Positions 42,179 to 62,411 of a stretch of DNA of 64,000 bases are shown in pieces. A program made the translations under genes and the position numbers. The DNA lies in assembly GCA_905147135.1 (NCBI GenBank), contig LR990053.1, forward strand, positions 18,639,115 to 18,703,114, written 5' to 3'. Position 1 is the stretch's first letter; each line of letters opens with the position of its first letter. The notes below the pieces were generated by a model. It was not told the DNA's origin and did not search any database. It saw only the letters and a program-made list of their open reading frames with translations. Source of the DNA: Blastobasis lacticolella (Eukaryota > Arthropoda > Insecta > Lepidoptera > Blastobasidae).

Positions 42179-43019
42179 TACATGAATAGGCTGAAGGAAA
42201 TGACATCACCTTGGCTCTGAGGTCTTGTCCTGGAGACGTACTGACTGACGATGATGATAGTGATGATGAATCGGCAATTGCGCTCGTTCGTAAAATGATG
42301 TAGAGTGGTTGTGTAACTTAGTTGTAGGTAACCTACGTATCAATGTAGTTTCCGCATAGTTTAAATAGAAATTACTAATCATTTTCATCGAAAGAAAGAG
42401 AGTTTTTCATTATTTGTAAATAAAAGTTTTTCTCTGAATCCCGTTACACCAACATTTTTGAGAATGTTTTTCTGGCCACAATTCTTAACTCTGGCAGGTT
42501 AGGCAGCTACCCCGATAGTAGTACCACAAAGACCAACATTTAAAGATAGCTTTACTTAGGGAAGCATACAATATAATGTGAGATGCAGTTAGGTTCTAAA
42601 ACATTTGAATAGAAAGTAAGGTATGGACAATTATCTATAAATAGTGGGAGCGATCGGACACAAGGGGTCCTAGTCGGGCAGCAATAACAATAATTCCGGA
42701 TTTATCCGGGCGTCGTGCTCCACTTACTGGATTTGGGCGCAGGCTGACCCGTAATGGAGCCGCGGCCCGCCGCCCGCAAACACGGGTGCGCGTTTAACAT
42801 AATCTTAGAGTTATCTTCTCTTCGTAAAACACTTGTTTGTGTTCAGATTTAGTACACTTTTCTGTTCAAATACGAAGGGCCATTTCCTTTGTTTACTGAG
42901 GCCGCGGACTCTCAAGTTTCCCGAGAATTTGGAAATAAGCCATACCCATAATTTGTAAATTTGTTTGATAATGTACCCATATTTTATCTGTATTTAATTG
43001 CTGTTAAACTGTGAAATGA
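42179..43019. other. Non-coding DNA next to the subtelomeric layer
   Basis: No gene supported. A GC-rich stretch at about 42700-42800 is followed by AT-rich DNA and an (AATA)n run at about 43022-43040, which forms the proximal edge of the TRAS fragments. Confidence 0.5.
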
Positions 43020-43065
43020 ACTAATAAATAAATAAATAAGTTAAATTCACAGACAATACAGACTA

Positions 43066-43458
43066 GACATGCTCCAACTTTGCCATCAATTTTGCTGCCG
43101 TCTGTGAAAATATGTACTGCATCGTCCTCCATGCGCAACCCCACGTCTGCCTCGCTTTCCAGGCAAGCGAAAGAGACTTCACTCTCCTCAGCAGGATGAG
43201 TCCTCATTAGAAAGCTGGCTCTTTCTTCCACAGAGCGGTCCCCCAGAATCGGCTGTGGCTTTCCTCTCTTCGCCTCATACAAGGATGCCACTTCCTTGAC
43301 TCTCAAGTCAAGTGGGAGCAGTCCCGTTAATATCAGAGCCGAATTCAGGGAGACTGTCTTGTATGCCTTGCTGATTTTCTGAGCGAATCCCCTCTGGACA
43401 GCATTTAGTTGCTTTTTTTTAATGTATTGTTCTTCAACCGATTTAACCCATATACTAT
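43066..43458 (-). pseudogene. TRAS-like ORF2 fragment: RT thumb to RNase H start
   Basis: The minus strand encodes LNAVQRGFAQKISKAYKTVS, then a LLPLDLRVKEVASLYEAKRG block and HIFTDGSKIDGKVGACL, where homology stops. These align with the TRAS ORF2 at 59309-62341 (LNNVQRGFAQKI, LLPLDLRIGEAAALYEAKRG, YTDGSKIDGGVGASL). TDGSK holds the first catalytic Asp of RNase H; the rest is missing. Past 43066 the frame runs into an (AATA)n host edge, without 3' untranslated region or A tail. So both ends are cut. It lies head to head with the plus-strand fragment at 43502. Confidence 0.85.
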
Positions 43459-43468
43459 CCCCCCCCCC

Positions 43469-43501
43469 GTACAACTAATAATCGTTTATTATTAGTTGTA
43501 C
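43469..43501. repeat. Perfect hairpin at an inversion junction
   Basis: GTACAACTAATAAT, spacer CGTTT, ATTATTAGTTGTAC: 14-bp perfect arms, preceded by a run of ten C (43459-43468). It sits exactly where the orientation of the TRAS coding pieces flips from minus to plus. Confidence 0.95.
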
Positions 43502-44093
43502 GAAAAAGGATGAGATCGAAAGGGTAGGGATCAAAGAGGCCGGAACAGAACTGAAAGTAGAGCAAACGGCAAATAAAAACCCTCTGATAATAATTAAAGA
43601 CGTAATGAAATACATTACCGATGACGACCTAGTCGCGGCTATAGAGACCCAGAACGGACATCTTTTGGAGGGAATTGAAATAAAGAAAGAGGACATGCAA
43701 GTAAAGACCAGACGAAAAGCAAGAAACGCGCTAGCCAATCACGTCATACTTCAGGTGCCACCCCTGGTCTGGCAGCGGCTGACTGCTGTTGACAAAATAC
43801 ATATCGATCTGCAGAGAGTGGCCGTCATGGACCAGAGCCAACTTATTCAATGCACAAAGTGTCTGGCATATGGACACACTAAGAAAGTGTGCACCCAATC
43901 ATCAGTGGTTTGTAGACACTGCGGCGGACCACACACTAAGCAAGACTGCGATGCTCTCGTCTTGGACGAAAAGCCAAAATGCAGGAATTGCGACTTAGCA
44001 AAGAGGGATGCTAGACACAACGCTTTTGACAAGAAGTGTCCTATTCGGCAGAAATGGGACGAACTCGCCCGATCGGCAGTAGCGTACTGCTAA
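43502..44093 (+). pseudogene. TRAS-like ORF1 (gag) C-terminal fragment
   Basis: The frame is open from the hairpin and contains an ATG at 43605; it ends with TAA at 44091-44093. It encodes the R1-clade gag tail: a DVMKYITDDDLVAAIETQNG block, basic linker, and three zinc-knuckle groups, CTKCLAYGHTKKVC, CRHCGGPHTKQDC, and CRNC...HNAF...C, finishing RQKWDELARSAVAYC. The order matches the ORF1 at 50987-52342. The knuckles are expected to bind element RNA, and R1-clade gag proteins help deliver TRAS to telomeres. The N-terminal half is missing. ORF2 follows directly. Confidence 0.85.
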
Positions 44094-44955
44094 GAGCTTG
44101 CCAGGTGGACAAACGACTGCAGGCAGCGACATTGGGTACTGCGTTGTGCAGGCTAACCTGCAACGTAAAAAACTTGCCACCGACGAGCTCATGCTCGAAG
44201 CAGGTCGAAAAAGAGTGAAGTATGCGCTTGTACAGGAGCCATATGTCGGAGCCACCGGCATCCTAAAAACTTATCCGGGTACGAGAATCCTCCAAAACGT
44301 AAACTTGAGGAATAGAGTTAACAAATCAGCCATAGTTGTGTTCGATAGCAGTATCGATGCAGCTTTGTGTCCCACCCTAACAACTGAAAACATCGTAGTC
44401 GCAAAACTTAGAATCGAGGATGTTACGACAACAGTTGCGTCGGTATATTTCGAGGACAATGTTGACATAGAGCCGAGCCGTACTTGGACCAACTGAAAAG
44501 AGTGGTTGAGAAAACGGGAAGCGCAAATATCCTGGTAGGAGGTGATGTTAATGCGTGGAGCACATGGTGGGGAAGCGACAAGGAAGATGAAAGAGGAAAA
44601 ATCCTGTCAGCAACGCTTGAAGACCTAAACCTCCATGTGCTAAGCCGAGGAAATATCCCGACTTTCGATACCATTCGAGGAGGGAAGAGATACAAGAGCT
44701 GTGTCGATGTCACGGCTTGCTCCGACAACATACTCCGGCACGTAGAGGACTGGAAAGTCGACCCGAATATGACGAGTGCGGATCACAATGCGATCCTTAT
44801 CAGTTTCACCACAAAAAAAGGAATAGGAAGTAAGTTAGGTACAGTAACACTAGAATCTATAATACAAAAAAAGCAGAATGGAGTAAATTTAAAGAAAAAT
44901 TGAATAGAAAATAATAAATATACTTACCCTGGTGGACTGCAGAACTGGACCAGCT
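44094..44955 (+). pseudogene. TRAS-like ORF2 endonuclease fragment
   Basis: Open pieces (about 44095-44496 and 44484-44903) encode the apurinic-type endonuclease of telomeric R1 elements: VQANLQRKKLATDEL, the Glu motif VQEPYVGATG, GGDVNAWSTWWGS, IPTFDTIRGGKRYKSCVDVT, and the catalytic TSADHNAI. A frame break near 44490 and another near 44850 interrupt it. After an internal deletion near 44905-44925, a scrap reading LPWWTAELDQLR ends at CTGAGG (44955), directly fused to TTAGGTTAGG. The reverse transcriptase is absent. It points toward the chromosome end and is cut on its distal side. Confidence 0.85.
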
Positions 44956-44969
44956 GAGGTTAGGTTAGG
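44956..44969 (+). repeat. Telomeric remnant at the proximal element boundary
   Basis: GAGGTTAGGTTAGG separates the broken plus-strand TRAS fragment from the poly(T) that ends the minus-strand element beginning at 44970. It is two TTAGG units in the G-rich orientation. Confidence 0.85.
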
Positions 44970-45439
44970 TTTTTTTTTTTTTTTTTTTTTTATAAGTATT
45001 TATTAATGTCCATAGACTGTTGTCCATGCTTTTGTTAGAGTATTTTTTAATTATAAAGTTCTTTTATTTTCTTCTACACTGAGCATCTTTTAGTGCTACA
45101 GAAGGTCAAAGATTAAATATAAAATAATAATATTATTAAATTTATGTTAGATACATGCTTAAATACAAAATACATTTAAAGAATAGATATCAGAGATACA
45201 TGCTCCATGCATTTTTTTTTTTTTTTTTTTTGTGTCATTTCTTTATAGAATATTTTAAACAGCAGTTGTCTTTTCTCTTGGTTCTTATACATGTATAATT
45301 CTTTTTTTTTTTTTTTTTTTTTTTTTTATTAATATTATCCGGTCACTGATATAAGTTTAAACAGACAATGCTTACTCTACGTACAGCTATAGCCACATTG
45401 TTTTTGTTTTGCAAAGTTTTTTTTATGACAACCAGGTTG
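44970..45439 (-). other. 3' untranslated region with three A tracts
   Basis: Downstream of the helicase stop the sense strand holds oligo(A) tracts of 26 (45302-45327), 20 (45212-45231) and a terminal 22 (44970-44991), then telomeric DNA. The internal tracts may be former 3' ends extended by later read-through, or structural parts of the 3' region recognised by the reverse transcriptase. The TRAS copy at 58400 also has several A tracts. Confidence 0.75.
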
Positions 45440-46795
45440 CTATGGGTTATTCAGGGTAGTCGCTTCCAGAAGCTTGCCTACTGTACCCATGTCCCGACTT
45501 CTTATCGCCATTTTGATATTACAGTCCTTGATTGCGACTGCCGAAGCTCGCTCCGCCCGCCTCACAAATCTGGCTATCGCGTCATCACTGTCATCAGTGT
45601 AATAGACACAGCTAACAGTGTGCCGCGACACTGCCACTACTGCGTGCGAAACGCTGTCGTGCAGCTGTAGCCTCTTAGATGTTGTGCACACTACAATCAC
45701 CCGCTCGCTCGTTAGACCCTGAGATTCGTGTATGGTTAAGGTGCGCGACCCGGTACCGCTCCCGAATCCCTTGGTGATCAGGGATTCTTTTTCTGCCTGT
45801 GTATGCACCAGGTAGAGTGTGTTTGGAAGGGTTGCGTCTATTTGTGTACCTGTAAACCCATTTAACTTTAAAGATCGTATTAGGGGTTTTGACGAGTATA
45901 TGCCGCTATACACTTCGCTAAGAGCATAAGCGACATCCATTGGGTTCCTATGTGTGCACAACAACTCCTGGCTAATATTTAGGACAGGATCTGGTCTATT
46001 ATATTTTACTGTAAATAGGTTCAGCCTGTCGATGTATGGCAATTGGTTTCTGTCCCCTATCAGAATGACTTCCTCAGCCCCCGTCAGTTGAATAGCCATC
46101 ACTATAGCTCCGAAATGGTTCATGAGAGCCTCGTCGACCATAATGCGCTTGCACTTTTTCTTACCTGACTCTGATAAACCATTTACGAGGAGTGACGCTA
46201 GAGTTCGAACACAGGACTTTGCGTCATTTCCCATACGATGGGAAAGCTTTTCCCTAAGATCTTCAGCCGCCTCTGTGGTTGTGGTGACTACTAGGTCTTC
46301 ACCTATTTCGAAGCGCTTTACAACCCATGTGGTTTTCCCGCATCCGGGAACTCCGTTGACCCATGTAATTTTTGGCATCACCCACGAATCAAAGGCTTTG
46401 CTATCTTCGAGGTTTTCTACGATGGCGTTTACCATTTTTAAAACTCTGTCATCCAGCATCACCTTTGTGCATCGGGCAGTGACAACTATCGGGTCACACG
46501 GTGGAGCGGTAAATGTTATCCGACGGGTTCGCTTTGCTTCCTCCTCGTCCACGTCAATGAATCCACTGGTCGCGCTGTACGCCGCCATATGATGACACAT
46601 TTCTTTCCCGTGTAAGACTTGGGATGTGTCGTTGTTATACACGGTGGCCTCTGATTCCTCGAGTCTCGTTTTGAGCATCAACTGACTACCCAGGAAATAG
46701 GATTGCATGATGTTTTTGCACGTTGTTAGGCTAACTTCCTTCGTAGCCTTGGTGATTGCGACAAACTCGAGGAAAGCGTTGACCATATGGTCCAA
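45440..46795 (-). CDS. Superfamily-1 RNA-virus-type helicase domain of the element
   Basis: A 451-codon frame encodes a full SF1 helicase like those of alphavirus-like plant RNA viruses (tobamovirus type). Visible motifs: Walker A GVPGCGKTT (148-156), motif Ia VVTTTTEAA (169-177), Walker B MVDEAL (219-224), motif III LIGDRNQLPY (245-254), motif IV LLCTHRNP (278-285), motif V TIHESQGLTS (354-363), motif VI AVVAVSRHTVS (385-395). All are intact, so ATP binding and hydrolysis are plausible. It is not a free gene. Same strand, the overlap with the upstream frame (46731-48095), and the shared 3' untranslated region make it the C-terminal part of the element's ORF2 product, separated by one frameshift between about 46970 and 46735. 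The track start at Met46795 is arbitrary. Unwinding of RNA or RNA-DNA hybrid during target-primed reverse transcription, or RNAi evasion, are only guesses. Confidence 0.9.
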   Translation of the reverse strand: MDHMVNAFLEFVAITKATKEVSLTTCKNIMQSYFLGSQLMLKTRLEESEATVYNNDTSQVLHGKEMCHHMAAYSATSGFIDVDEEEAKRTRRITFTAPPCDPIVVTARCTKVMLDDRVLKMVNAIVENLEDSKAFDSWVMPKITWVNGVPGCGKTTWVVKRFEIGEDLVVTTTTEAAEDLREKLSHRMGNDAKSCVRTLASLLVNGLSESGKKKCKRIMVDEALMNHFGAIVMAIQLTGAEEVILIGDRNQLPYIDRLNLFTVKYNRPDPVLNISQELLCTHRNPMDVAYALSEVYSGIYSSKPLIRSLKLNGFTGTQIDATLPNTLYLVHTQAEKESLITKGFGSGTGSRTLTIHESQGLTSERVIVVCTTSKRLQLHDSVSHAVVAVSRHTVSCVYYTDDSDDAIARFVRRAERASAVAIKDCNIKMAIRSRDMGTVGKLLEATTLNNP

Positions 46796-48095
46796 GGGCG
46801 TAGACGCTTTTCTGAAACTCGGCGGCCGGACCTGTACCCCGGATTCTCCTACACGGATTGTTGGGCGTTGTGATGTTTGGCCCTCGGGCTGTTGCTTGGT
46901 TGTGGGTGTCTTCTTCCAACCGCGCCGTCTCTGTCTTCTGTGTCTTAGCTGTTTTAGAAGTCCCTAATACTGACGTTTTTATAGTCCTTATTAGGGCACT
47001 GAAGCGGTTCTTAGTTTTGGACTTTTCCTTAGCGGCGGCTTGCTTCTGCTCTTTCTCCTGAGCTGTTCTTTGTTGAAGGAGTTCGGATCCGCTAAGTGCT
47101 TCTGGATTTACTATGGGGTGTCCCCAGGTGTCGATGGGGTTGGCTGCTGCTGAAGAGCCGGGCTTTTGTGTATTTAGGAAACTAAGGTTTGCACCTCTAT
47201 CCTCGTATACAATGACCTCGTGATGTTCCGAGGCGTTGATACACCCGACGTAGTCTGCAGCTTTACATGGCTCAAACCCTACCACCATAGCATCCACACT
47301 TATTATGCGGGGTGTGACTGCGGCACTGCTGCCTTCCCTTCCAATACTGGTAAGCACGGAGCACGCCTGAGCAAACTGGGTTTCATCAGTACTTCCCTCG
47401 AATAGCGCAATCGTTTTATTATGCGATCGCACCAGACGACATTTGTTACTGGCAACCTCTATCTCTGGAAGCGCATTGAATGTTCTGCGCTTCATGCTCG
47501 TTTTAAAAGTACTTCCATTCAGAAGGACGGCGAGGCCAGGTGAAATCGTCACTCTATTTCGAGCCATGGCGCTGCAGAAGCTTATACCCAGCCGTTCGGA
47601 ATTATTGTCCATGAACAGGACCACTGCCCTAGTACTAATTCCCGGTGTTCCCAACTCCCCATACTGTAACAGTTGATTTGTTGTGGTTTGGTGTGGGACG
47701 AGAATAGGGCTCACGGCGCGTGGGAATGTGACTTGGGTCGCCGTTGTTGCCGTACCAGGGGTGATGGTGCTGTTTCTGGCAACTGCTGTTTTAAAAATTG
47801 ACGCAATGTAATCCAACAGATGCGGCCTTTTGATCTCATCAGCTAAAACTCTGTGAAGCCCTGCCTTTGTTAGATTTGTGTTTATGCGGTTTTGTAAGTC
47901 ATGTCGAGCCGCCAGAAAACGGGGGCAGTCTAAGATTATATGCCATACAGACTCAATGACGTCCGGTTCACACTCACATTCGGGGCTGTCTTTCAACTTA
48001 AACCGATGTAAATATTCCGCTATACCTCCATGTCCTGTCAGAGCTTGAAAACGACGTTTCCTTTCCCTGTTCCCACCATGATAGGGCAGCGCCAA
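46731..48095 (-). CDS. Zinc knuckle plus unrecognised linker domain of ORF2
   Basis: The first codon is a non-ATG (TTG): this is a frame continuation, not a start. Residues 17-60 carry QALTGHGGIAEYLHRFKL and the C-x-C-x9-H-x4-C knuckle (Cys40, Cys42, His52, Cys57) that ends ORF2 of R1-clade elements. In the sister element at 58-62 kb the protein stops at the position equivalent to about residue 108 here. This one continues for about 340 residues. Residues 120-290 look folded (alternating hydrophobic strands, such as TRAVVLFMDNNSERLGISF and RIISVDAMVVGFEPCK); residues 300-410 are Gln/Lys/Ser/Thr-rich and probably flexible. I recognise no family. It leads into the helicase frame. Confidence 0.8.
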   Translation of the reverse strand: MALPYHGGNRERKRRFQALTGHGGIAEYLHRFKLKDSPECECEPDVIESVWHIILDCPRFLAARHDLQNRINTNLTKAGLHRVLADEIKRPHLLDYIASIFKTAVARNSTITPGTATTATQVTFPRAVSPILVPHQTTTNQLLQYGELGTPGISTRAVVLFMDNNSERLGISFCSAMARNRVTISPGLAVLLNGSTFKTSMKRRTFNALPEIEVASNKCRLVRSHNKTIALFEGSTDETQFAQACSVLTSIGREGSSAAVTPRIISVDAMVVGFEPCKAADYVGCINASEHHEVIVYEDRGANLSFLNTQKPGSSAAANPIDTWGHPIVNPEALSGSELLQQRTAQEKEQKQAAAKEKSKTKNRFSALIRTIKTSVLGTSKTAKTQKTETARLEEDTHNQATARGPNITTPNNPCRRIRGTGPAAEFQKSVYALGPYGQRFPRVCRNHQGYEGS

Positions 48096-51003
48096 CTTTG
48101 CCTTCTATCTTGCTGCCATCGGTGAAAATCTGTGGCCCGCAGATGTGGTGGGCTTCAAGGGTTTCGGGATTCGTGTCTTCCAGGAGCTCGTATTCCGGCG
48201 CCAAGAACGCCGATGGATGGGGAAGGTTTAGTTGATTAACCTTCTGTTCGAGCTCCCTTTTGGGTGGTAGATAGTCTTTTGTGAGGTTTTTCTTAATTTT
48301 ATATAGGCTGGAGGCTTCCTGTATCCTCAAGTCCAGCGGGAGCAAACCCGACAGGACTAGAGCCGACGTGAGTGAGGCCGTTCGATACGCCTTGCAGATC
48401 TTCTGCGCGAATCCTCTTTGTAAGGTGTTTAGTTGGTCTTTGACCATTTTCAGCTCCGTGGCTGAGGACCACGCACTTGCGGCGTACATGACTATGGGTT
48501 CAATAACCGCTGTGTACATTGTTCTGATAATTTCTCCGTTCAGGCCCCAGGTTACTTTCGCTGCACATGCCAGCTGTTTGTATATGTCCATGGCTTTCTT
48601 GCAAACGGCGGCAATGTGTGGCCTGAACGTTAGTCTGCTATCAATAATGAGACCCAAAAGTTTTATTTCGTCAACTAGGTCGAGACGACATCCCGACATG
48701 TAGAGTTGCGGGGACTCGTATTTTAGCTTTTTCGTTAGTAGCATCACGTTGGTTTTGTGAGCTGCGAAGTTTAGCTTATTTTGGAGTCCCCATTTGACCA
48801 CAGTACCGAGAGTGTTGTTGACGGCCTGTTCCAGCTCGTCAATCTTTTGCCCAGAGAAAACCAATACCACATCATCCGCGAAAGCCTGACAGTACACGCC
48901 CTCACCGGTGAGAGTCTGCAACAGAGGATCAAGGATGATGTTCCAAAAGGTTGGTCCGCCGATGGAACCCTGAACACAACCCTTCGTAGTTTCCTTCTCA
49001 CTTGTCGCTCCGGCATAATTGACCTTGATCTTGCGGTCGCTTAGGTACGAGTCTGTCAGTGCGTATAGGTTTCTTGGACACTTTTTGTTTATTAATTGAT
49101 GTTTTAATGCTGGCCACCACGCGTTGTCGAAGGCCCCCTCTATGTCCAGGGAGACTAGAAGGACGATCTTTTTATCGTTCACTTCCTCCCGAATATGTTT
49201 TACAAGGTCAAAGAGGGCGTCCTCGGTCCCGCGCTGCGGCATGAAGCCGTACTGCTGTTTATTGAGAGTTGGAAAAATATGCCACTGTATGCGGCCCACC
49301 AAAAGCTTCTCGACTATTTTTCCAAGAACTGGCAGCAGACCGATTGGTCTGTAGGATTTTGGATGGGTGTAATCCTCTTTTCCTGGCTTCCGTATAATGA
49401 CTACGTGGGCCAACTTCCACTGCCTAGGAAAGTACGCGAGAGACAGGCACTTATTTGCCAAAGCCAAAAACACCTTCCTGTCGGTTTGAATGGCCACGGT
49501 GCAAATATCTGCCGTCAATCCGTCATGACCGGGGGCTTTCTTAGGGTTTAATGCCCTAAGAACTAGATCCAGTTCTGCTGTTGTAAATGGTGGATCGTCC
49601 CCCGGCAAGTCTGCGAACTCAGTTGGTCTGCCTCCCGTCAGTTGCCGGAGCCGAGTGTGGTACGGATGATCGGTCGATTCGGAATCGTTGGGATAGAAGG
49701 TTTCTGCCAGGAGCCCCGCTGATTGTTCTGGGCTTAGAGTTGTGGAATTTACACTTCTCAGGAGTAAGTCTTCCTGTCTCTTGGCTGTCCTTCTAATGAC
49801 CCTATAGACACCGTCCCACATGCTTTCCTTTTCTTGTGTGGTGCAGAAAGTTTTCCAACTCTCAGTCTGAGCTTGCTCAGCTTTTGTTTGGTAATCCTTT
49901 TTGACCATCAGATACTCATCGATGACCAGCTGTCTTCTGGTGGGGGCTGCGTTCCTTATTCTTCTCTTTTTCTTTAGTACCTCTCTCTTAAGGTCCTCTA
50001 AATGTTTGGACCACCATGGAGGTCTTCCGTCTTTTCTCCATTGTCCAACTCTAGGAATAGCCTTATCACACGCTTCATGAATTGCTTGTGTGTAAGCAGT
50101 TATTTTGGCTTCCAAATCTTTAGGTGTCTTCAACGTCTCAACGGTTTCGGGTGTTATGTTGTATGTTGAGAGGAGAGCTCTGAAATAGGATCTAAAGTCC
50201 GACCAGTTGGCCTTCTTTGTGTTGTATCTGCGTGTTGATGAGGACGGAATAGGTTCCAGCGTCGCTTCAAGGCACAGATCAAATGTTATGGCATTGTGGT
50301 CTGATGTGATCAAACTTCTGTCAACCCTCCAGTTCTCTATGGCTCCTAGCAGCGACTCGCTGCAAGCGGTTACGTCGACTATACTGGTACAGAGTCTTTC
50401 TCTCCTGTACGTTTCGAACGTTGGCGTGTCTCCTGTGTTTAAGATTTGTAAATCCATGTCATTAAGGAAGGTACTATATGCTGCTCCTCTTGCATCTTCA
50501 ACGCTGCTCCCCCACCATTGACTCCACGCGTTGATGTCACCCGCTACGATAAGATTATTTGTATCCAGCTTGTTGCAGACCGCACGAGTCCTTGCCAAGT
50601 ACGGTTCTATGTCCTGATCTCCCTCGTAATATACTGATACCACTCCCAGCTTCAGTTTTCCCGCTACCAACAGGACAGCCGCCTCCGTCTCAGTCACCAG
50701 CTGGGGGTCATGTATTACCTCCAAGCGGACACTGAAGATTATTATAGCGGTCTTCACTGGTTTCTGGCGATTTAGGGAGCACTGTATGACTCGAGTTCCA
50801 GGATATTGTTTAAGAATGCCTGTCCTTCCCACGTAGGGCTCTTGGACCAAAGCTACAGATATACCCTTCTCTCTCGCCACCTGAAGTAGCTCAGCTGTTG
50901 CTAGTTTGGAGCGTTGCAGGTTTGCTTGGATGATGTGCAGCCTGCTTGTATCACGAGGGGTGTTGCTTGTGGCCTCCTGGTCGCCCTTAGCAAAAGGACA
51001 CAC
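47998..51003 (-). CDS. TRAS-like ORF2: endonuclease and reverse transcriptase
   Basis: A 1001-codon frame. Endonuclease, residues about 20-240: HIIQANLQRSK, VQEPYVGR (catalytic Glu55), VAGDINAWSQWWGS, and ITSDHNAITF (Asp235, His236). This type of domain nicks TTAGG/CCTAA in TRAS. Reverse transcriptase, about 485-800: KAPGHDGLTAD, YRPIGLLPVLGKI, YGFMPQRGTEDAL, LVSLDIEGAFDNAWW, QGSIGGPTFWN and the catalytic AFADDVVLV (Asp710, Asp711). A stub of RNase H (FTDGSKIEGKVGAALSWWE) is followed by a short out-of-frame tail, because about 165 residues are deleted. The first codon is GTG, and no ATG occurs in the first 180 codons. The frame overlaps the end of ORF1 by about 20 bases. Confidence 0.93.
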   Translation of the reverse strand: MCPFAKGDQEATSNTPRDTSRLHIIQANLQRSKLATAELLQVAREKGISVALVQEPYVGRTGILKQYPGTRVIQCSLNRQKPVKTAIIIFSVRLEVIHDPQLVTETEAAVLLVAGKLKLGVVSVYYEGDQDIEPYLARTRAVCNKLDTNNLIVAGDINAWSQWWGSSVEDARGAAYSTFLNDMDLQILNTGDTPTFETYRRERLCTSIVDVTACSESLLGAIENWRVDRSLITSDHNAITFDLCLEATLEPIPSSSTRRYNTKKANWSDFRSYFRALLSTYNITPETVETLKTPKDLEAKITAYTQAIHEACDKAIPRVGQWRKDGRPPWWSKHLEDLKREVLKKKRRIRNAAPTRRQLVIDEYLMVKKDYQTKAEQAQTESWKTFCTTQEKESMWDGVYRVIRRTAKRQEDLLLRSVNSTTLSPEQSAGLLAETFYPNDSESTDHPYHTRLRQLTGGRPTEFADLPGDDPPFTTAELDLVLRALNPKKAPGHDGLTADICTVAIQTDRKVFLALANKCLSLAYFPRQWKLAHVVIIRKPGKEDYTHPKSYRPIGLLPVLGKIVEKLLVGRIQWHIFPTLNKQQYGFMPQRGTEDALFDLVKHIREEVNDKKIVLLVSLDIEGAFDNAWWPALKHQLINKKCPRNLYALTDSYLSDRKIKVNYAGATSEKETTKGCVQGSIGGPTFWNIILDPLLQTLTGEGVYCQAFADDVVLVFSGQKIDELEQAVNNTLGTVVKWGLQNKLNFAAHKTNVMLLTKKLKYESPQLYMSGCRLDLVDEIKLLGLIIDSRLTFRPHIAAVCKKAMDIYKQLACAAKVTWGLNGEIIRTMYTAVIEPIVMYAASAWSSATELKMVKDQLNTLQRGFAQKICKAYRTASLTSALVLSGLLPLDLRIQEASSLYKIKKNLTKDYLPPKRELEQKVNQLNLPHPSAFLAPEYELLEDTNPETLEAHHICGPQIFTDGSKIEGKVGAALSWWEQGKETSFSSSDRTWRYSGIFTSV

Positions 51004-52342
51004 GAGCCCGCGCTATGGCATCCCACTTCTGCCGTTCTCGACACTCAATGCTAAATGCGTTGTGTGCGACGTCACGGTTCTCTCCTTGAGCTTTAACGCA
51101 GTTTCTGCACTTGGGGGGTAGTCCCTCCTGCCTACTTGGACATTTTTCCCAGAGGTGAGGATCCCCGCAGTAACTGCACAGATCGTTCTTATCCTTGCAT
51201 AGAGCCCTTGTATGACCGAATCCCAAACACTTTGTGCACTGCACCATTGGGGACTGGTCAACCACTTGGGCTCTCTGTAGGCCAACATAAACTCTGCCTG
51301 CGTCGACAAAGCGTTTGTGTATCTCTGGGGAGAGTTCCAAGACCGGATGGCATTCGTGAGGATTTCGGGCTTTTTTGCGATAGCGGACTCGAATTGTACT
51401 TTCCTTCATATCGACTCCATGTAATAAGTGCTTATTTTGCACGATGACATGCTCAACAATCTCTGCGTCAGTATGATAGGAGAGCACATCCTTCATTCTT
51501 GCGAGTGGGTTGCTAGCTTTGGCAATCTCTGCTTTGAGAGTCTTGTCCAATTTAACCCTATCTCGGACAAGGTTTAGGTCTTCTTTAGTATTGCAGCTCA
51601 GAATGACCTTCTGGTTCTTTGCCTTTCTCACCCTGTCCACTTTTGCCCCTGTATTTTTGAGGTCTAGTACTTTTCTAATCGTCTCTATCACTTTTTCACC
51701 GGTTTTCCCAGGGTCCGTTGATGAGACGATCAGAGTATGGTTAGGATTCGGTGTTGGAAGTTTAGCTGCCATCCGTGCATAAGAAGATGGTTTTGACTTG
51801 GCTTGCACCATATCTGCCTTTGCCATTTCTGCGCCTAAATTGAGAACGGCTGCTGGCGGTTGCTCTTGCTGTTTGAGCTTCCTCATTGTGCGTAACTCGG
51901 ATGAAACAGCTTCCAGGCGTTCAGTGATAGGTTGAAGGTGTTCCTTCAGCTGCTCGCTAGACTGCTGCTGGTTTGCGGGTAACGTAGATAGTTTGGTAGT
52001 CATATTGTTTTGTATATCCTTACCTATTTTGTCTATTGTAGTCTTAAGTTCGTCGAGACCCAATTCTATGCTGGAAGAGTCCGAATGTGAAGGTGGTGGT
52101 GGCTGTGTTTTAATAAGGTCTAAGGTTTTTAATGTTGTGTCCTTTACTTCAGAGGTTGATGTTCGCGTCTCTTCAAAGTCCCTTCTCATTGTGTCCAATT
52201 GATTGGAAATTGTGCTTAGTGAAGAGTGGAGCCTTGAAAGATCGCTGTGTGTGACCCCTGAAGTTTTTCCTCCTGCACCCTCTTGGCGATGTTGCGTCGG
52301 TCTGTCTGCTAGTGTCTTAATACACATGCTTTGTTCCGACAC
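50987..52342 (-). CDS. TRAS-like ORF1 (gag), C-terminal part
   Basis: A 451-codon frame ending TGC TAA (50987-50989). Residues 30-170 are helical, Ser/Thr/Gln/Glu-rich with heptad-like spacing, probably a coiled coil for multimerisation. A central basic/helical part contains NHTLIVSSTD and VIETIRKVLDLKNTGAKVDR, the RRM-like region of R1 gag. Near residue 370 three zinc-knuckle groups follow: CTKCLGFGHTRALC, CSYCGDPHLWEKC, and CRNC...HNAFSIEC. The product should coat element RNA and bring it to telomeres. The first codon is GTG after an in-frame TAA, and the first ATG is five codons on, so the true N-terminus is probably the frame at 52360-53124, separated by two stops and a frame change. Confidence 0.88.
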   Translation of the reverse strand: MSEQSMCIKTLADRPTQHRQEGAGGKTSGVTHSDLSRLHSSLSTISNQLDTMRRDFEETRTSTSEVKDTTLKTLDLIKTQPPPPSHSDSSSIELGLDELKTTIDKIGKDIQNNMTTKLSTLPANQQQSSEQLKEHLQPITERLEAVSSELRTMRKLKQQEQPPAAVLNLGAEMAKADMVQAKSKPSSYARMAAKLPTPNPNHTLIVSSTDPGKTGEKVIETIRKVLDLKNTGAKVDRVRKAKNQKVILSCNTKEDLNLVRDRVKLDKTLKAEIAKASNPLARMKDVLSYHTDAEIVEHVIVQNKHLLHGVDMKESTIRVRYRKKARNPHECHPVLELSPEIHKRFVDAGRVYVGLQRAQVVDQSPMVQCTKCLGFGHTRALCKDKNDLCSYCGDPHLWEKCPSRQEGLPPKCRNCVKAQGENRDVAHNAFSIECRERQKWDAIARARVSFC

Positions 52343-52359
52343 CGACTTTTATATGTCTT

Positions 52360-53124
52360 TTATCTGCTTATGGGGTTCGGTCGTCTCAAATTCCAACCAA
52401 CTTCTACGGCCTGCGTCTCCTTTAAGGTAGATGTAACATCGGCTCTGACATGACTCAGCTCAGAGATTATGTTGTTAGTTATCTCCGTTATTTTCTTATT
52501 ATGAGCGTGCTCTACGCGCACTAGTTCCTGCGCGTTCCTGGAGCGTTCCTTTTCCAAGTTGAACTTGTGTCTGGATCGGGAGTCAGATAATGCCAGAAAC
52601 GTTTCATACATCGACTGCAGGCATTCTAGGGCTATAGATTTGCATTCCCTCTTCATATTGCCTGCGTTCTCTATTGCCTCCTTTCCCTTTTGAAGAAGAT
52701 CGTTGGCGTGTTTTGTGGCCATATCCATTTCGACACCAGGCCGCCTTGTTGACGAGAATATCATGCTCTGCCGCCCGACCCGTGGCAGTTCGGACGTTGC
52801 CGAGTCGGACGCCGACACAACCGATAATTCATCGTCTGATGCCACAGCGAGGCACAGAGGACTATCTGCTTGATCCCAGGTGGAAACCTTTTCGATGGCC
52901 GCAAACGCAGCAACCGGGTCCAGTTCCACCGTCGATTCGTCCTCTGATTCTTGGGCAGATGTTACTGCTACCGCTGCTTTCGTCAAGACCTGCTCTCTTA
53001 GCGACCTTGGTGCTTTAATAGATGGAGTAGTAGTGTTTTTCCCTATGAGACTTGACGCCTTTTTCTTAGGTGAAGCCTGTTTTTGTTCTTTGCCGGTCTT
53101 CCCTGTGGGAACTGCCGGGGGCAT
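52360..53124 (-). CDS. TRAS-like ORF1, N-terminal part, broken off
   Basis: A 254-codon frame from ATG 53124 to TAA 52360. It starts basic and low-complexity (TGKTGKEQKQASPKKKASS), has an acidic middle (SEDESTVELDPVAAFAAIEK), then a long helical stretch with HKFNLEKERSRNAQELVRVE suggesting a coiled coil. This resembles gag N-termini of telomeric R1 elements in position and composition. The frame is also open upstream of ATG 53124, while another frame offers ATG 53287 with MSSVTKRTRSTKEAS, so one more frameshift near 53230 is likely. It could instead be a separate short ORF in front of gag, but the missing N-terminus of the next frame argues for one broken ORF1. Confidence 0.6.
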   Translation of the reverse strand: MPPAVPTGKTGKEQKQASPKKKASSLIGKNTTTPSIKAPRSLREQVLTKAAVAVTSAQESEDESTVELDPVAAFAAIEKVSTWDQADSPLCLAVASDDELSVVSASDSATSELPRVGRQSMIFSSTRRPGVEMDMATKHANDLLQKGKEAIENAGNMKRECKSIALECLQSMYETFLALSDSRSRHKFNLEKERSRNAQELVRVEHAHNKKITEITNNIISELSHVRADVTSTLKETQAVEVGWNLRRPNPISR

Positions 53125-53287
53125 GATGGAAACTATTGGTGTTGGCCCCTTCTGCCGTGTTATTTTTTGTGAGGCGGGGGGAGAGATATTCTTTTCAGGA
53201 GTCGATTTTTGCGGCTTCTTAGAAGCTGCTGGAAGCGACGCGCGACGCCTCCTTTGTCGACCTGGTTCTCTTAGTAACTGATGACAT

Positions 53288-54620
53288 TTTTATATTGTTG
53301 ACAATATTTTGTTAAATACTAATAACTACTACTAAATAAATAGAAAAACAATATTATTACTTATATGCCAAATGAAACAAAACTAAATATTACAATAACT
53401 AAAATTAACCTTCAGTAGCACCCGATGCACCTGATGCGCCAAGCCCGATGTTCTGGACTCTGCGTGGATTTATGCTGTGTCGTAACAAACAGTGCACTTC
53501 CCTATGGTTCTTATCCCGTAAATCTGTTGGAGCCAAAATATAGATCTCGTTGTTCCGAAAAATTTGAGTCCAAACAGAGGTGGTCTAGCCTTCGTAGTTC
53601 GAGAGATACAGCTTCCGGGGTTTTATCCCTCTATTTCTCGACTTCCTGGACAGTGAAACGGGAATTTAGATTTTCTGCTGGAGCCAAAGTGCTTGTCTTC
53701 TCTTCCCGAATTCAACGAGCCCAAACAACAGGCCCCTATCTCTGCAGGTTCCAGAGTTATGACTCGGGGGGGTGAAATTCGCGGGGGGGGGATTTTTGTG
53801 GGTACGCTATTGATAAAGTTTAAAAAATAGCGCAGGGGGGGAGAGTTTTGTATGAGGGGGGGGGATGTGTCCTGTAGGATAGATCCTGTAGGATATGTGA
53901 CACCCTTTCAACTTCCTGGTTGTAATGAGCCCAATCACGGGGGGTCTTCCTCCTTTGGCTTGGGAGTTAGGAGCTATGGAGTGGAAGTACAATAAGGGTG
54001 AAACTGTGAAGGGTGAAAAGGGGAATTTCACTATGGGAATGATGGTATCACAAGTGTATTGACGTCCTGATCCCGATGAGCCCAAACACGGGTAGCATCG
54101 GACCAACGGTTGAAGAGTTCCCTCGAGGTAGCCTGGTGGTCGTTAAAGGAGGCTTCAGGTCTGGACATCCAAGTTTTGCGGAGTCCTAAAATCTGCTGCG
54201 AAGTCGTCAGGTACGGCCGGTGTGTCAGCTACGTCACGCCTCGTGCCGCTACTCAGTGAACGTATGTTGTAAGTAGGCCACGCGTGGCAAAAATGTTAAT
54301 ATTTAGGAGCCTGTAACTCCTTAGGATGACTTCCGATCACAATTCCGTTTTCAACGTTTAATAGAGCAAAACGAGCACTTTAAGATGATATAATGCTGTA
54401 CTTTATAGCACTAACCTTCTTGATGTTATTAACCTCCAAAGTTGGGATCCTGTGGGAGCTGCACCTGATAAGGGAGAGCGTTGCAAACGCTAATCCTGGC
54501 GAGTCACACACTTATTTATCACAGCACAACACAATTTTGCGCGTAGCTCAAAAATTGCGATTTATGGCAATTTTTATCGCGGAGCTATATGTTTATTCGG
54601 TCACTATTGGATGCGTACTG
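53288..54620 (-). promoter_or_regulatory. 5' untranslated region with internal tandem repeats
   Basis: On the plus strand, GAGCCCAAAC-type motifs recur at 53566 (GAGTCCAAAC), 53717, 53927 (GAGCCCAATC) and 54078, spaced 151, 210 and 151 bp. Each is followed by a variant of GAG..ATA/TATGAC-type sequence, and G runs lie between. So this part is built of degenerate repeats of about 150 bp. R1-clade elements carry an internal promoter at their very 5' end, here expected next to 54620, where the element meets TTAGG. Long 5' regions are known in TRAS. Confidence 0.7.
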
Positions 54621-54639
54621 GGTTAGGTTAGGTTAGGTT
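54621..54639 (+). repeat. Telomeric repeats between TRAS and SART elements
   Basis: GGTTAGGTTAGGTTAGGTT: about three and a half TTAGG units lying between the 5' ends of two divergently oriented elements (minus-strand TRAS-like to the left, plus-strand SART-like to the right). Confidence 0.95.
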
Positions 54640-54982: not shown

Positions 54983-55168
54983 ATGACGGACGCCAGGCGG
55001 GAACGCCCGCTCGTGCAGTCCCAGGACTCTGTTTCTGATGCGGAGTTTTTACACCCCAGTGCTAGCACTCGGGTATCTTTAGAAGTTGCTTCGGCTCCGG
55101 TTGCTTCAGGCAGCCGCTTCTTTCGATGGGAAGATCTTGGCGGTCCGATACGGATGCGTCAACATTAA
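54983..55168 (+). pseudogene. SART-like gag N-terminus, separated by a frameshift
   Basis: ATG 54983 opens MTDARRERPLVQSQDSVSDA and continues to FFRWEDL before running into an unnatural tail and stop at 55168. The downstream gag frame (ATG 55126) continues smoothly in composition with SDTDASTLTDTSS. One frameshift around 55120-55140 would therefore explain both. This makes 54983 the probable original start of ORF1 and the ATG at 55126 an internal Met. Confidence 0.55.
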
Positions 55169-57210
55169 CGGATACTTCGTCCATTGCTGGCGCAGGCGAA
55201 CGCGCAAAGTATCTGCGCAAACGCACTCGCGCGACCAAGGGGGACTCTAGTTCGGAGACCCCTTCAATCAAACAGGTTAAGGCGGCGACTAAGGCAGCGC
55301 CCAAACGTGGCCGAAAACCAACTACGGGGCACTCCGTGGGGTTGGCAAAGGCCCAGCAAGACCTTAACCAGCTCCAGAGAGAGGATTATGCGCTGGAACT
55401 CGAGGAGCGAATAGCAGCGAAAGAACGTGCTGCTCGCGTCCAGCACGGATATGGCGTTTCCCTCTTCGAGAACTATGAAGATAAGACCATCCCCGAGCTA
55501 GAAGCGATGATCAAGGCTGACTCAGAGACAATAATTGAAATTGCCACAAAGTCGAACCGATTGAAGGGCACCTTGCAGAAGGCGTTAAAAAATAAGGCCG
55601 GCTCTCTTAAAGAGATATGCTTAGAGCTCAGTAAAAGGTCGGTCTCTGAGGAGACACAGCGGCTGCAAGCGACCAATGATCGCCTGCAGGCCGAGGTGGA
55701 GAAGCTAAAGAAGGATATCGCCGAAATAAAGGCGCAGCTCCCCGTTTCGGCCGGCTCACTTTCAGCAACCGCAACCTCAACAGCTACTACAGCGATGGAG
55801 GTTGTTCCGTCAGTGTCGCAAGTCTCTCAGCCCGATTTGGGCCCCATGGACTTTGAGGCAATCATCCGAAAGGTCACTATGGAGGAAATGGCATTCACGA
55901 GAGCTTTATTTGACGGAATTGAGGATCGACTGTTACCGGCTAAAATATTACGTCCTCCACTCGCGGCGGACAAAAGGAAGGCTGCCGAGGCTACCGAGGC
56001 CTTGGTGGTGGAGACACCGAAACCCACCAAAGGTAAAGGTGCAAAGACCAGAGGATTAACGTCGTCAGTCCCCAAACCTGCGTCGGGTATAGGAGCCAAG
56101 GCGCCGGGAGCATTGCCCCCCGCACCCACTCCCAAGGTCGTAGTTGGCCCGTCTAAACCGGGCCCATCAAAGGCGATCGAGTCCACCGATCTGCCGTCAT
56201 CCGCTCAGGCCTTGCCGGAGGCGGATACTATGCTACCTTCGACTACTGCCGCCAATGATGGGTGGACTGCCGTGGGCAAAAAAGGAAAGAAAGGGAAAAG
56301 GAAGGCGACTAGAGCCTCCTCTTCGGCCCTAAAGCCATCGAATTCTAAGTCGCCTGCCAAGGGCTACAAGAAGAGTAAGGCAGCCACAGCCCCGACCGAA
56401 AAGGTTAAGAAGATGGCGCCACCCAAGTCTGCGGCAGTCATTGTGACTATTACGCCGGAGGCCGCAGGGAGAGGCGTGACTTATGAGGCGGTATCAACAA
56501 AGGCTCGGGAGTCGGTGAAGCCCGAGGCCCTCGGTGTAACAGATGTGAAATGTAGGCAAACCCAAACTGGGGCTCGAATCTTCGAGTTCCCTGGAGCGGA
56601 ACGGGAGCAGCATGCCGACTCTTTTGCAGCAAAGCTCCGAGAAGCTGTCTCCGATATGGCCAAGGTGACGAGGCCGCAAAAGACTGTGTCCTTGGCAATC
56701 TCCGAATTGGATGACTCGGTTACTAAAGACGAAGTGGCCGCCGCGGTCGCGAAAGCCGTCGGCTGTAACGTAGAGGAGATAAAAACTGGGGAGGTCCGAC
56801 GAGGCCACGGCGGATTGGGCACGGTTCGTATACAATGCGCCGACGCGGCCGCAAAAGCCGTCCTCACAAAGGGGCGGCTACTAGTTGGTCTTAGTACTGG
56901 TGTCATCCGGGCTCTTCAGGAGCAGCCATTACGCTGCTTCCGATGTTATGCTGTCGGGCATACCGGAGCACGCTGCCCTTCGAAAGAAGACAGGGCGGAG
57001 CTTTGTTTCCGCTGCGGAAAAGCGGGTCACAAGTCAGTCTCCTGCAGTGAAACGCCGCGCTGCGCGGTGTGCGCGGCGAGTGGACGGCCCGCGGGTCACG
57101 TTATGGGGGGGAAAAATGTAATCCCCCACAAAGAAGGGAAAGATGCAGCCAATAACGAGGCCTGCTACCACTGCCGCTGTCGGGTCACGCCCGAGCAACT
57201 TGGAGGGTAA
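55126..57210 (+). CDS. SART-like ORF1 (gag)
   Basis: A 694-codon frame. The N-terminal 110 residues are basic and Ser/Thr-rich; about 115-210 form a long charged helix with coiled-coil character (LQATNDRLQAEVEKLKKDIA). Residues 290-440 are Ala/Pro/Lys-rich linker. About 440-600 is the compact R1-gag region (TKARESVKPEALGVTDVK, RRGHGGLGTVRIQC). Zinc knuckles follow: CFRCYAVGHTGARC, CFRCGKAGHKSVSC and CAVCAASGRPAGH. The last Cys of the third knuckle is out of frame: a TGT at 57117-57119 sits in another frame just after GGGGGGG-AAAAA, and a further shift near CCCCC (57123-57127) would lead to a frame ending ATGTCCGAGTAA. So the stop at 57210 is probably not the original one. Function: RNA binding and telomere targeting. 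Confidence 0.88.
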   Translation: MGRSWRSDTDASTLTDTSSIAGAGERAKYLRKRTRATKGDSSSETPSIKQVKAATKAAPKRGRKPTTGHSVGLAKAQQDLNQLQREDYALELEERIAAKERAARVQHGYGVSLFENYEDKTIPELEAMIKADSETIIEIATKSNRLKGTLQKALKNKAGSLKEICLELSKRSVSEETQRLQATNDRLQAEVEKLKKDIAEIKAQLPVSAGSLSATATSTATTAMEVVPSVSQVSQPDLGPMDFEAIIRKVTMEEMAFTRALFDGIEDRLLPAKILRPPLAADKRKAAEATEALVVETPKPTKGKGAKTRGLTSSVPKPASGIGAKAPGALPPAPTPKVVVGPSKPGPSKAIESTDLPSSAQALPEADTMLPSTTAANDGWTAVGKKGKKGKRKATRASSSALKPSNSKSPAKGYKKSKAATAPTEKVKKMAPPKSAAVIVTITPEAAGRGVTYEAVSTKARESVKPEALGVTDVKCRQTQTGARIFEFPGAEREQHADSFAAKLREAVSDMAKVTRPQKTVSLAISELDDSVTKDEVAAAVAKAVGCNVEEIKTGEVRRGHGGLGTVRIQCADAAAKAVLTKGRLLVGLSTGVIRALQEQPLRCFRCYAVGHTGARCPSKEDRAELCFRCGKAGHKSVSCSETPRCAVCAASGRPAGHVMGGKNVIPHKEGKDAANNEACYHCRCRVTPEQLGG

Positions 57211-57226
57211 CAATAATATGTCCGAG

Positions 57227-57231
57227 TAATG
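57227..57231 (+). promoter_or_regulatory. TAATG stop-start overlap between SART ORF1 and ORF2
   Basis: TAATG at 57227-57231 joins a TAA (in frame with ATG 57218, MSE then stop) to the ATG of ORF2. In Bombyx SART1 the same UAAUG arrangement drives coupled termination and re-initiation. Here it works only if the gag frame is the one ending at 57229, which supports the two frameshifts inferred in gag. Confidence 0.7.
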
Positions 57232-57816
57232 TCACAAATTGGGCAACGCACAATATTGCAGGGCAATCTAAACCATTGCAGGGCAGCCCAAGACTTAATG
57301 TTTCAGGTTATGGCGGAATGGTCTGCAGGGATTGCAGTAGTTGCCGAGCCATATTCTGTACCTCCCACCTGGGAGGGTGACAGAGACGGCCTGGTGGCCA
57401 TTGTTCCGCGGCTATCCACGGATTCCCCACTACTCTCAGTCAATGACAGGGGACATGGATACGTAGCCGCTGTGTGGGGGGAGATCTCGCTTGTGGGAGT
57501 TTATTTCTCCCCTAACCGCTCTCTGGCGGAATTCGATGATTTCCTCCAGGAATTGTCAGGTGTCATCGGTCGTTTGTCGTCGAGGCAGGTCGCCGTTCTT
57601 GGTGACCTGAATGCCAGGTCCGGGCGCTGGGGTGACTCAATCACGGACGCGCGCGGGCGCCTGCTGGAGTTGTGGGCGACATCAACTTCCCTGTCCCTTC
57701 TGAATAGGGGGACGACTCAAACGTGTGTGAGGCGGCAAGGAGGGTCAGTGGTGGACATGTCGTTTTTGAGTTTATTGAGTTTTTTTTTATGTCGACTTGT
57801 TCTATGGGTCAATTAG
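57229..57816 (+). CDS. SART-like ORF2 N-terminal endonuclease fragment
   Basis: ATG 57229 (from TAATG) opens an endonuclease of the R1/SART kind: LQGNLNHCRAAQDLM, the Glu motif VVAEPYSVP, GHGYVAAVWGEISLVGVYFS, VAVLGDLNARSGRWGD, and RRQGGSVVDMSF, where homology stops at about 57765. The remaining codons to 57816 come from the adjoining repeat. The catalytic SDH near the end of the domain is absent, as are reverse transcriptase and everything downstream. No activity expected. SART endonucleases cut TTAGG/CCTAA in the opposite orientation to TRAS. Confidence 0.85.
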   Translation: MSQIGQRTILQGNLNHCRAAQDLMFQVMAEWSAGIAVVAEPYSVPPTWEGDRDGLVAIVPRLSTDSPLLSVNDRGHGYVAAVWGEISLVGVYFSPNRSLAEFDDFLQELSGVIGRLSSRQVAVLGDLNARSGRWGDSITDARGRLLELWATSTSLSLLNRGTTQTCVRRQGGSVVDMSFLSLLSFFLCRLVLWVN

Positions 57817-59106: not shown

Positions 59107-59313
59107 TTATTTATTCCTACTTATAACCTTATTTGCTACGTTTATCATATATTTTAGTAAGTGCGATCGTTTGCTTTTGTTTGATATTATTTCACTAACT
59201 TTTTCTTTACATAGAGTCTCTTCAATTCTATTTTCAATGTCATGTCGTTGTTTAGCGTTTGCTGGGCATTCGAAGAGGATGTGTGCTACGGTTTCTTCGA
59301 CTCCTGGTTCACT
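59107..59313 (-). pseudogene. C-terminal end of TRAS ORF2 beyond a frameshift
   Basis: After FKCK and a TGA the homology continues in another frame: EPGVEETVAHILFECP, then NAKQRHDIENRIEETLC and a lysine-rich end NKVISRNK before TAA 59107-59109. The H-x4-C half of the terminal zinc knuckle is in this part, so a single-base loss at about 59313 splits the knuckle. This marks where a normal TRAS ORF2 ends, and no further coding follows. Confidence 0.8.
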
Positions 59314-62300: not shown

Positions 62301-62341
62301 CTTCCCCACCAGGTGTTTTTAGCATTTGTGTCCCCACCCAT
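59309..62341 (-). CDS. TRAS-like ORF2: endonuclease (part), RT, RNase H
   Basis: 1010 codons from an internal ATG. The frame is open further upstream to about 62411 (LEPYLERLKAIQLELKPKK), so the true start is lost. Endonuclease C-terminal half: GGDTNAKNTWWGS (2-14) and TSSDHNTLVFS (80-90). Reverse transcriptase about 330-640: NPKKAPGADGLTAD, SYRPIGLLLVMGK, QYGFMPQRSTED, ISLDIEGAFDNAWW, GCVQGSIGGPTLWN, and AFADDVVLVF (Asp555, Asp556). RNase H near 800-925: IYTDGSKIDG, YHAELLAISEA, GIYSDSRSALE and GNERADFLAKEA, with all catalytic acids present. It ends at LTGHGGFSEYLTRFKCK with TGA, one frameshift short of the terminal zinc knuckle. The intact RNase H gives the reference for what is missing from the element at 44970-54620. 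Confidence 0.95.
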   Translation of the reverse strand: MGGDTNAKNTWWGSTEVNHRGEEMHGAIEEMGLQILNVGDVPTFDTIRGNKRFSSHVDVTTCTMDMVGLVEDWRVDEAITSSDHNTLVFSIMLAKAKGMNVLRTTRVYNTKKANWAIFHEKLNQLKGEEDINVAKVQKIYSKRELDLVTERFASVVTKACEETLPKKRSTEKLTLPWMSEELEKLKKKVLTLKRRIRCAAPVRRDKVIREYLQIKESYEMEVKKAQVESWKEFCGKQDGEGVWEGIYRVINRTTKRQEDLPLESNGVMVDLSESAKLLTEVFYPDDLSGSDTIHHQSVREKADHVNDRHPEEIHDSPFTMEELRSAVESFNPKKAPGADGLTADTCSHAISGEPEFFLALVNKCLELEHFPTIWKEATVVVLRKPGKETYRNPKSYRPIGLLLVMGKIYEKMLVNRLRWHVLPNMSTRQYGFMPQRSTEDSLYDLTHYVQQKVKAKKLVTMISLDIEGAFDNAWWPAIRVRLAEVNCPVNIRRVMDSYLQDRKVSVRYGGEQNTKNTTKGCVQGSIGGPTLWNILLDPLLRGLEERGDYVQAFADDVVLVFDGDTALEVQRRANAALAYVRDWGIKNKLNFGPQKTKAMVLTRKLKYDAPRLSMGGVGIGISEDIKILGLYVDSKLTFNKHVAEVSKKAINIYKQLSRAARISWGLHPEVIRLIYRATVEPVIMYASSVWAPAARKLGVQKHLNNVQRGFAQKIIKAYKTVSLNSALVLSGLLPLDLRIGEAAALYEAKRGKLPHLLADREVERVATYAEAPHPAENVRLEFMSLVNQAEVDANNKQEIRIYTDGSKIDGGVGASLSVWNGDTEIKAIKLKLSSYCTVYHAELLAISEAMRFTLERQETSFGIYSDSRSALETIANNDSRHRLALQAREIIRTSKLQNKEISLFWIKAHVGLEGNERADFLAKEAAKRKTRPKYDLCPVSYVKWQIRQDSLEQWNDRYVTGGTAAVTKMFFPDVVHSYKIIKEMEVTGTLTQVLTGHGGFSEYLTRFKCK

Positions 62342-62411
62342 AATGAGCTTTTTAGGTTTAAGTTCTAGTTGAATGGCTTTAAGCCGCTCCAGGTACGGCT
62401 CCAGGGGTTGG

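Follow-up and report, generated by a model that had tools for sequence, protein, structure and literature searches.

Why should a retrotransposon that lives in the telomeric repeats of a moth end its reverse transcriptase protein with a helicase of the kind found in RNA viruses? This question is raised by a stretch of 64,000 nucleotides of Blastobasis lacticolella (the window, by which we mean this whole stretch), where a damaged long interspersed nuclear element (LINE) of the TRAS type closes its second open reading frame (ORF2) with a viral-type helicase of superfamily 1 (SF1). Helicase-bearing TRAS elements are a kind already known (Lazareva 2015, Morozov 2017), and what the present locus brings is the place where they reside and a candidate source for more than their helicase. 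We propose, from the comparison of sequences, that the helicase would serve the element's own reverse transcription at chromosome ends, a reading to which we give a probability of roughly 0.55.

A helicase fixed at the end of ORF2

The helicase is encoded on the minus strand at 45440..46963, in a frame of 507 amino acids (aa) that holds a pre-helicase stretch followed by the helicase itself, and that ends ORF2. All six motifs which the preliminary description of the locus had read there (GVPGCGKTT, VDEA, GDRNQLPY, THRNP, HESQG and AVSRHT) are present. The frame matches the Pfam family Viral_helicase1 (PF01443; 109.5 bits, E 2.9e-31), with its core at residues 202–456 (45596..46360, minus strand), as well as the tomato mosaic virus helicase in the PDB (3vkw, E 3e-28), so that the window element displays both the complete motif set and the fold of an alphavirus-like SF1 helicase. 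The catalytic residues of the ATPase motifs are invariant columns in a 52-row helicase alignment, which includes one possibly viral row, P0029.

In the window the enzyme is broken, ORF2 being split into three shifted frames with a loss of about 490 bp in RNase H when compared with three other copies. The genome of origin (577 Mb in 45 contigs), which was searched for further copies, provides the intact form: eight other copies keep ORF2 as a single open frame of 2018–2026 aa, and the fused frame, open from reverse transcriptase (RT) to helicase, which had been suggested as a thing to look for, is thus found. In the intact copy used as a reference for this order and for block searches (L012), the succession is endonuclease, RT, RNase H, zinc-type tail, spacer and helicase. 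The searches scored the best 46 of 13942 RT candidates, the best 93 of 478 spacer candidates and all 83 of the 83 helicase candidates, which makes the RT and spacer counts lower bounds. Among those best 46 RT candidates, a helicase stands downstream, within 6.5 kb, in 18 of the 22 RT rows of the family (91–100% identity), the remaining four being partial RT matches or interrupted by an internal stop. The element family has the helicase as a constant component.

How ORF2 is started is a matter of its own. Four copies (L010, L012, L013 and L016) have no ORF2 ATG before codon 186, that is, beyond the start of the endonuclease, and their ORF2 start overlaps the ORF1 stop in a different frame; because of these two features the translation of ORF2 would call for a frameshift, re-initiation or a start codon other than ATG.

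Copies at chromosome ends

The 77 rows of the helicase search come down to 39 places, of which 38 are on placed contigs and the 39th is on a small contig, C42. Thirty-three of the 38 are found no more than 100 kb from the end of a contig, spread over 24 ends, and all 33 are oriented alike, with the 5′ end facing the contig end (distances were collected up to a limit of 105 kb, and the farthest place counted is 99.4 kb from its end). For 31 chromosomes, and with insertions taken as independent, a binomial calculation gives this clustering a P of about 1e-59, a figure on which we do not rely. The five placed exceptions are more diverged or fragmentary: they are found in the interior of C17 (82–85% identity, with stops), at 298 kb on C25 (best piece 89%), at 164 kb on C2 (56%, in the opposite orientation), at 156 kb on C4 (45%) and at 2.9 Mb on C30 (37%).

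The native 3′ end is kept in 15 of 20 fetched copies, that of the window included, and lost in five; in 14 of these 15 the A-tail joins telomeric repeats directly. From one copy to another the tail varies from 11 to 29 A, and it is followed by 0 to 226 perfect telomeric units, as is expected from separate insertions. (The junction of L026 was missed by the A-tail/repeat pattern and seen in the reading of junctions; the telomere-repeat pattern was used as a count only, with 10156 forward and 13679 reverse occurrences and 0 for the reversed control.) At the other extremity, the same 5′ start after (CCTAA)nCC recurs in six of seven stretches, among them the window, and two of these starts lie about 100 bp from a contig end; the seventh stretch, on C1, is made of CCTAA repeats throughout and shows no 5′ end. 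Insertion in TTAGG repeats with the A-tail next to CCTAA, the mark of TRAS elements, is what the 3′ and 5′ ends display, and the sites agree with the TRAS target as described in the passages of PMC12036569 devoted to it. The claim of a telomere-directed TRAS-type element, initially made from the window alone, is borne out by the end-proximal places and the repeat junctions taken together. Copies may also follow one another: in L014 and L017, respectively, 14 and 12 telomeric repeats are all that stands between a copy and the 5′ start of the next, into which they run directly.

Selective constraint across copies

The eight intact copies, 98.7–99.7% identical in nucleotide sequence, lend themselves to the measure of the ratio of non-synonymous to synonymous change (dN/dS), a check called for at the outset; the choice of open copies excludes stops, not amino-acid changes. 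The pooled value for the helicase is 0.17, like that of RT (0.21), and the other parts of ORF2 range from endonuclease (0.18) and RNase H (0.21) to the zinc tail (0.34) and the spacer (0.55). The synonymous excess reaches significance in RT (p 4e-3) and in the helicase (p 2e-4), not in the spacer (p 0.07). Furthermore, identities of up to 99.7% between copies indicate that the family has spread recently as an element.

Probable viral origin of the helicase and its spacer

A block search with L012 brought up 60 proteins, of which P0062–P0115 are of the ORF2 type and P0116–P0121 are viral replicases. All ORF2-type proteins of that series that bear a species name come from Lepidoptera, and in the search for helicase relatives the other named row besides lepidopterans is a distant entry of Vigna angularis. 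The six viral rows are virga/martelli-like replicases, those named being from Mite martelli-like virus, Wufeng shrew martellivirus 1 and Atrato Virga-like virus 3, so that a plant virus is rejected as the nearest source among these matches; the pertinent part of PMC5563155 likewise gives invertebrate viruses as the best viral matches. The preliminary description had spoken of an alphavirus-like helicase of plant viruses: the RNA-virus-type SF1 helicase stands, and the plant viruses have to give way to virga/martelli-like ones.

It had also spoken of an old capture of a viral helicase. The RNA-virus type and a history shared with RT go along with this, but the formulation is too narrow, as more than the helicase was probably captured. 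P0116 matches the spacer at aa 1518–1705 (26%, E 6e-12), and the match runs on in the same order through the helicase to aa 2383, with 42% identity over 568 columns; P0116 is found again, at aa 1517–1696 (E 2e-19), when the spacer domain is turned into a profile. This colinearity suggests that the capture probably went beyond the helicase and took in the spacer. For the first part of the spacer the similarity is to this one virus, P0116: two other compared viral replicases match only from about ORF2 residue 1548 on, and a search of proteins with the spacer found seven, none of them viral. A scan of viral contigs found no relative.

This first part has a predicted structure which resembles that of a macrodomain, with scores that are only suggestive; in the window copy the folded domain homologous to the viral replicase lies at 47142..47705 (minus strand, coordinates from tblastn rows). 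Pfam and PDB macrodomain sequence profiles gave no match to the spacer domain at E up to 10, and a search of NCBIfam gave no family above its cut-off. When the full model was used, the best structure in the viral library was the replicase of Atrato Virga-like virus 1 (E 1.1e-42 over 847 columns), with a root-mean-square deviation of 20.5, so that the match is not evidence that both domains superpose. One may tentatively imagine that a telomere-specific retrotransposon joined a viral unit of two domains, one macrodomain-like and the other an SF1 helicase, to endonuclease, RT and RNase H in a single telomere-copying enzyme of 2025 aa, and that the substrate of this pair, in the course of target-primed synthesis, might be telomere ends that are nicked, G-rich and marked with ADP-ribose, a picture that we hold to be possible and rather improbable as it stands.

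The helicase tree brings 25 TRAS rows together (90/91), with P0116 and P0029 as the sisters of this group; P0029, first labelled TRAS, goes with the virus P0116 (98/94), and the long rows P0121 and P0047 meet in a placement that is unsure. The RT tree also unites 25 helicase-bearing rows (100/97) and leaves outside them four shorter elements of the TRAS type from the window's genome. The rows of both trees are a chosen subset: the helicase tree left out P0055, P0036 and P0040 (helicase match below 250 residues), and the RT tree, which took 26 of the 54 ORF2-type proteins and compared them with only these four shorter elements and one distant LINE, left out P0107 and P0109 (RT stretch below 280 residues). 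Distances between RTs and between helicases correlate (r 0.72), and these comparisons support a history common to the two domains. Three tortricid proteins of about 500 aa (P0049, P0051 and P0053, from Leguminivora and Cydia) carry a helicase of this type that is only distantly related and sits on a long branch in the helicase tree; there is no RT among their listed Pfam domains, and they are possibly a separate captured gene.

What the helicase may do for the element

We may now propose a scenario. An ancestor in the lepidopteran line would have acquired, at the native end of ORF2, roughly 745 aa from a replicase of the virga-like kind, a block comprising the pre-helicase stretch and the helicase and ending before the polymerase. 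The ORF2 protein would begin by nicking the TTAGG strand and then prime on the A-tail of the element; as target-primed synthesis proceeds, the ATP-driven helicase might open structured template RNA or the RNA-DNA duplex. That the helicase works for its own element in this way is the most economical reading, because helicase and RT lie in one chain, under one level of constraint, in copies that have spread recently.

This proposal must be weighed against observations that do not favour it. The telomeric location is seen in one genome, where the A-tail of the C42 copy, one of the 15 native ends, meets non-telomeric sequence. Elements of shorter ORF2 occupy contig ends of this same genome: among the best 46 of the 13942 RT candidates, the 24 other rows (47–52% identity) belong to different elements of the TRAS type, whose open frames measure 1200–1268 aa in 20 cases and 911–1187 aa in the rest, lengths which are too short to accommodate the helicase. 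Distant elements, among the best 93 of 478 spacer candidates, match the spacer query only to residue 112–115, which is the zinc tail. Helicase-free TRAS elements at contig ends imply that telomere insertion, in general, can do without the helicase. Finally, the helicase variants number only 14 synonymous and 9 non-synonymous, counts that are small because the eight copies differ by 0.3–1.3%, and a selection acting at the level of copies fits equally well a suppressor of silencing in the service of the element.

That suppressor is indeed the main rival, proposed by Lazareva 2015 and Morozov 2017: the helicase would shield the RNA of the element from the small interfering RNA (siRNA) or PIWI-interacting RNA (piRNA) pathways. 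It would produce the copy-level selection observed, and the assays, as reported in PMC5563155, detected an activity that was weak but detectable; its own authors nevertheless state, in the discussion of the assay in PMC4686597, that it is no unequivocal demonstration, and an enzymatic step accounts at least equally well for the invariant ATPase motifs and for a helicase dN/dS close to the RT value. We regard suppression of silencing as a serious competitor, of clearly lower likelihood than a role in reverse transcription. Much less probable, in our opinion, is the idea that helicase-bearing copies have ceased to be telomere elements and that the host retains them as a defence against viruses, which the relevant section of PMC6338049 (Morozov 2019) argues from the absence of such copies near (TTAGG)n. 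The premise fails in this genome, because helicase copies are found at 24 contig ends and inside the telomeric repeats themselves, while identities of up to 99.7% point to a recent spread of the element; moreover, of the two works cited there as sources, Geisler 2018 and Kondo 2017, the text of the former contains zero occurrences of 'telomer'.

Could the helicase be a simple passenger, fused long ago and carried along without a function of its own? The weaker constraint on the spacer (0.55, not significant) and the success of elements with a shorter ORF2 in the same genome would allow it, but the synonymous excess in the helicase (p 2e-4) and catalytic residues that do not vary across 52 rows make it hard to believe. 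As to a nested or recombined insertion peculiar to the window copy, which the separate frames of that copy might evoke and which the preliminary description had set out as what would overturn its view, it is ruled out for practical purposes by 38 further matching places, some of them old and diverged, by the single 3′ untranslated region that the fetched copies share, and by the one-frame ORF2 of eight copies. The other outcome set out there, a helicase with poly(A) or target-duplication boundaries of its own, did not occur either.

The window copy and its surroundings

The element had been delimited as 45440..51003; it is in fact longer, extending over 9.65 kb (with its internal loss) from 54620 down to 44970 on the minus strand, both ends being common to other copies of the genome. 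Directly 5′ of it stand the telomeric repeats (CCTAA)3CC (54621..54637), after which it starts as other copies do. The ORF1 region, with CCHC-like cysteines, covers 50987..53289 and is here in two frames, 52360–53289 and 50987–52348, the second of which ends at the same point in other copies. The first frame of ORF2 (47998..51012) has Pfam matches to endonuclease (PF14529), reverse transcriptase (PF00078) and the start of RNase H; the deletion is joined at 48045..48047, as located by blastn against L010, L012 and L013. Translated frames and tblastn place the zinc-type tail and the spacer in the second frame (46731..48104), the third being that of the helicase, and all are on the minus strand. 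The overlap previously noted between the helicase frame and the C-terminal frame of ORF2 is present (46731–48104 against 45440–46963), but it results from damage to the window copy. The shared 3′ untranslated region ending in poly(A) and TTAGG was correctly seen: with its inner A-tracts, common to other copies, it spans 44992..45439, and the A-tail of 22 (44970..44991) is directly followed by the telomeric repeat CCTAACCTAACCT (44957..44969).

Other elements crowd this chromosome end. Just beyond the 5′ end of the helicase-bearing element, an oppositely oriented LINE (55066–57816, plus strand), perhaps of the SART or R1 type, shows an ORF1-like frame of 714 aa, in which a zinc knuckle is weakly matched, followed by a fragment of endonuclease that is 26% like that of TRAS. 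Nearer the chromosome end, at 59309–62416 on the minus strand, lies a helicase-free TRAS-type element of another family, truncated at its 5′ side into a (CCTAA)n run; its A-tail and CCTAA are at about 58420–58376, its 3′ end joining telomere-like repeats. A dense AT-rich tandem array (62638–63687), with AAAATTTG-like units and a 93/186-bp unit containing pieces of TTAGG, separates two runs of telomere repeats. The terminal (TTAGG)n run, at 63662–64000, is only about 340 bp long, and the end of the window is the exact end of the contig (C14, position 18703114). On the other side, 43004–44897 holds further TRAS-type pieces in both orientations, ORF1 and endonuclease on the plus strand and an RT end on the minus strand, about 39–55% identical over the longer matches.

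Comparison with known systems

The helicase-free TRAS, be they TRAS1 and TRAS3 of Bombyx or the elements of the same genome, resemble the window family in the kinship of RT and in their position at contig ends, four elements of this genome being 55–59% identical to it over RT. They differ in that the ORF2 of those in this genome is mostly of 1200–1268 aa and their match to the spacer query stops at the zinc tail. The virga-like and martelli-like replicases (P0116, Atrato Virga-like virus 3, Mite martelli-like virus) resemble it in the helicase and the stretch that precedes it, colinear and 42% identical to P0116; unlike it, they also hold FtsJ and an RNA-dependent RNA polymerase, and mostly a methyltransferase, among their listed Pfam matches. 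The tomato mosaic virus helicase (3vkw) is more remote, with 24% identity, and comes from a plant virus. Jockey LINEs of Hemiptera and Orthoptera (Morozov 2017) also carry a viral SF1 helicase, but belong to another clade and have it in ORF1, and the corresponding passages of PMC5563155 give it a separate origin.

The closest system is that of the helicase-bearing TRAS/R1 LINEs of Lepidoptera (Lazareva 2015; Morozov 2017; Geisler 2018), which are also carried by the Spodoptera species of the Sf9 cell line (PMC5803895). The preliminary description had mentioned a report of such R1 LINEs in insects; it is confirmed, TRAS members being exactly the cases presented in the parts of PMC4686597 and PMC5563155 that describe them, and the former places the RT of the family with TRAS1 and TRAS3. 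As in the window family, endonuclease, RT, RNase H and zinc tail are followed by a spacer of more than 300 aa and a C-terminal SF1 helicase. The ORF2-type relatives P0062–P0115 are 42–60% identical to the window-family block, and the window element has its helicase at the C-terminal end of the ORF2 frame and its RT in a clade with those of other helicase-bearing ORF2 proteins. At the level of titles and beginnings of abstracts, with subscription journals mostly outside, the papers listed showed no report of helicase-bearing TRAS in telomeric repeats or of a viral origin of the spacer, which is not proof of absence. Two differences remain with what has been published. The spacer of the window family matches a virus, when the account given in PMC4686597 (Lazareva 2015), as far as its passages on the spacer go, has it without significant similarity to viral sequences. 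And the family sits in TTAGG repeats at chromosome ends, where such copies were not found according to the section of PMC6338049 (Morozov 2019) that concerns (TTAGG)n, so that the location opposes the view on which the argument for an antiviral role was founded. In at least one species, helicase-bearing TRAS shift from a dispersed curiosity to recently spread residents of chromosome ends, and what a reverse transcriptase gains from a viral helicase when copying into telomeric repeats becomes a question that can be put to the test.
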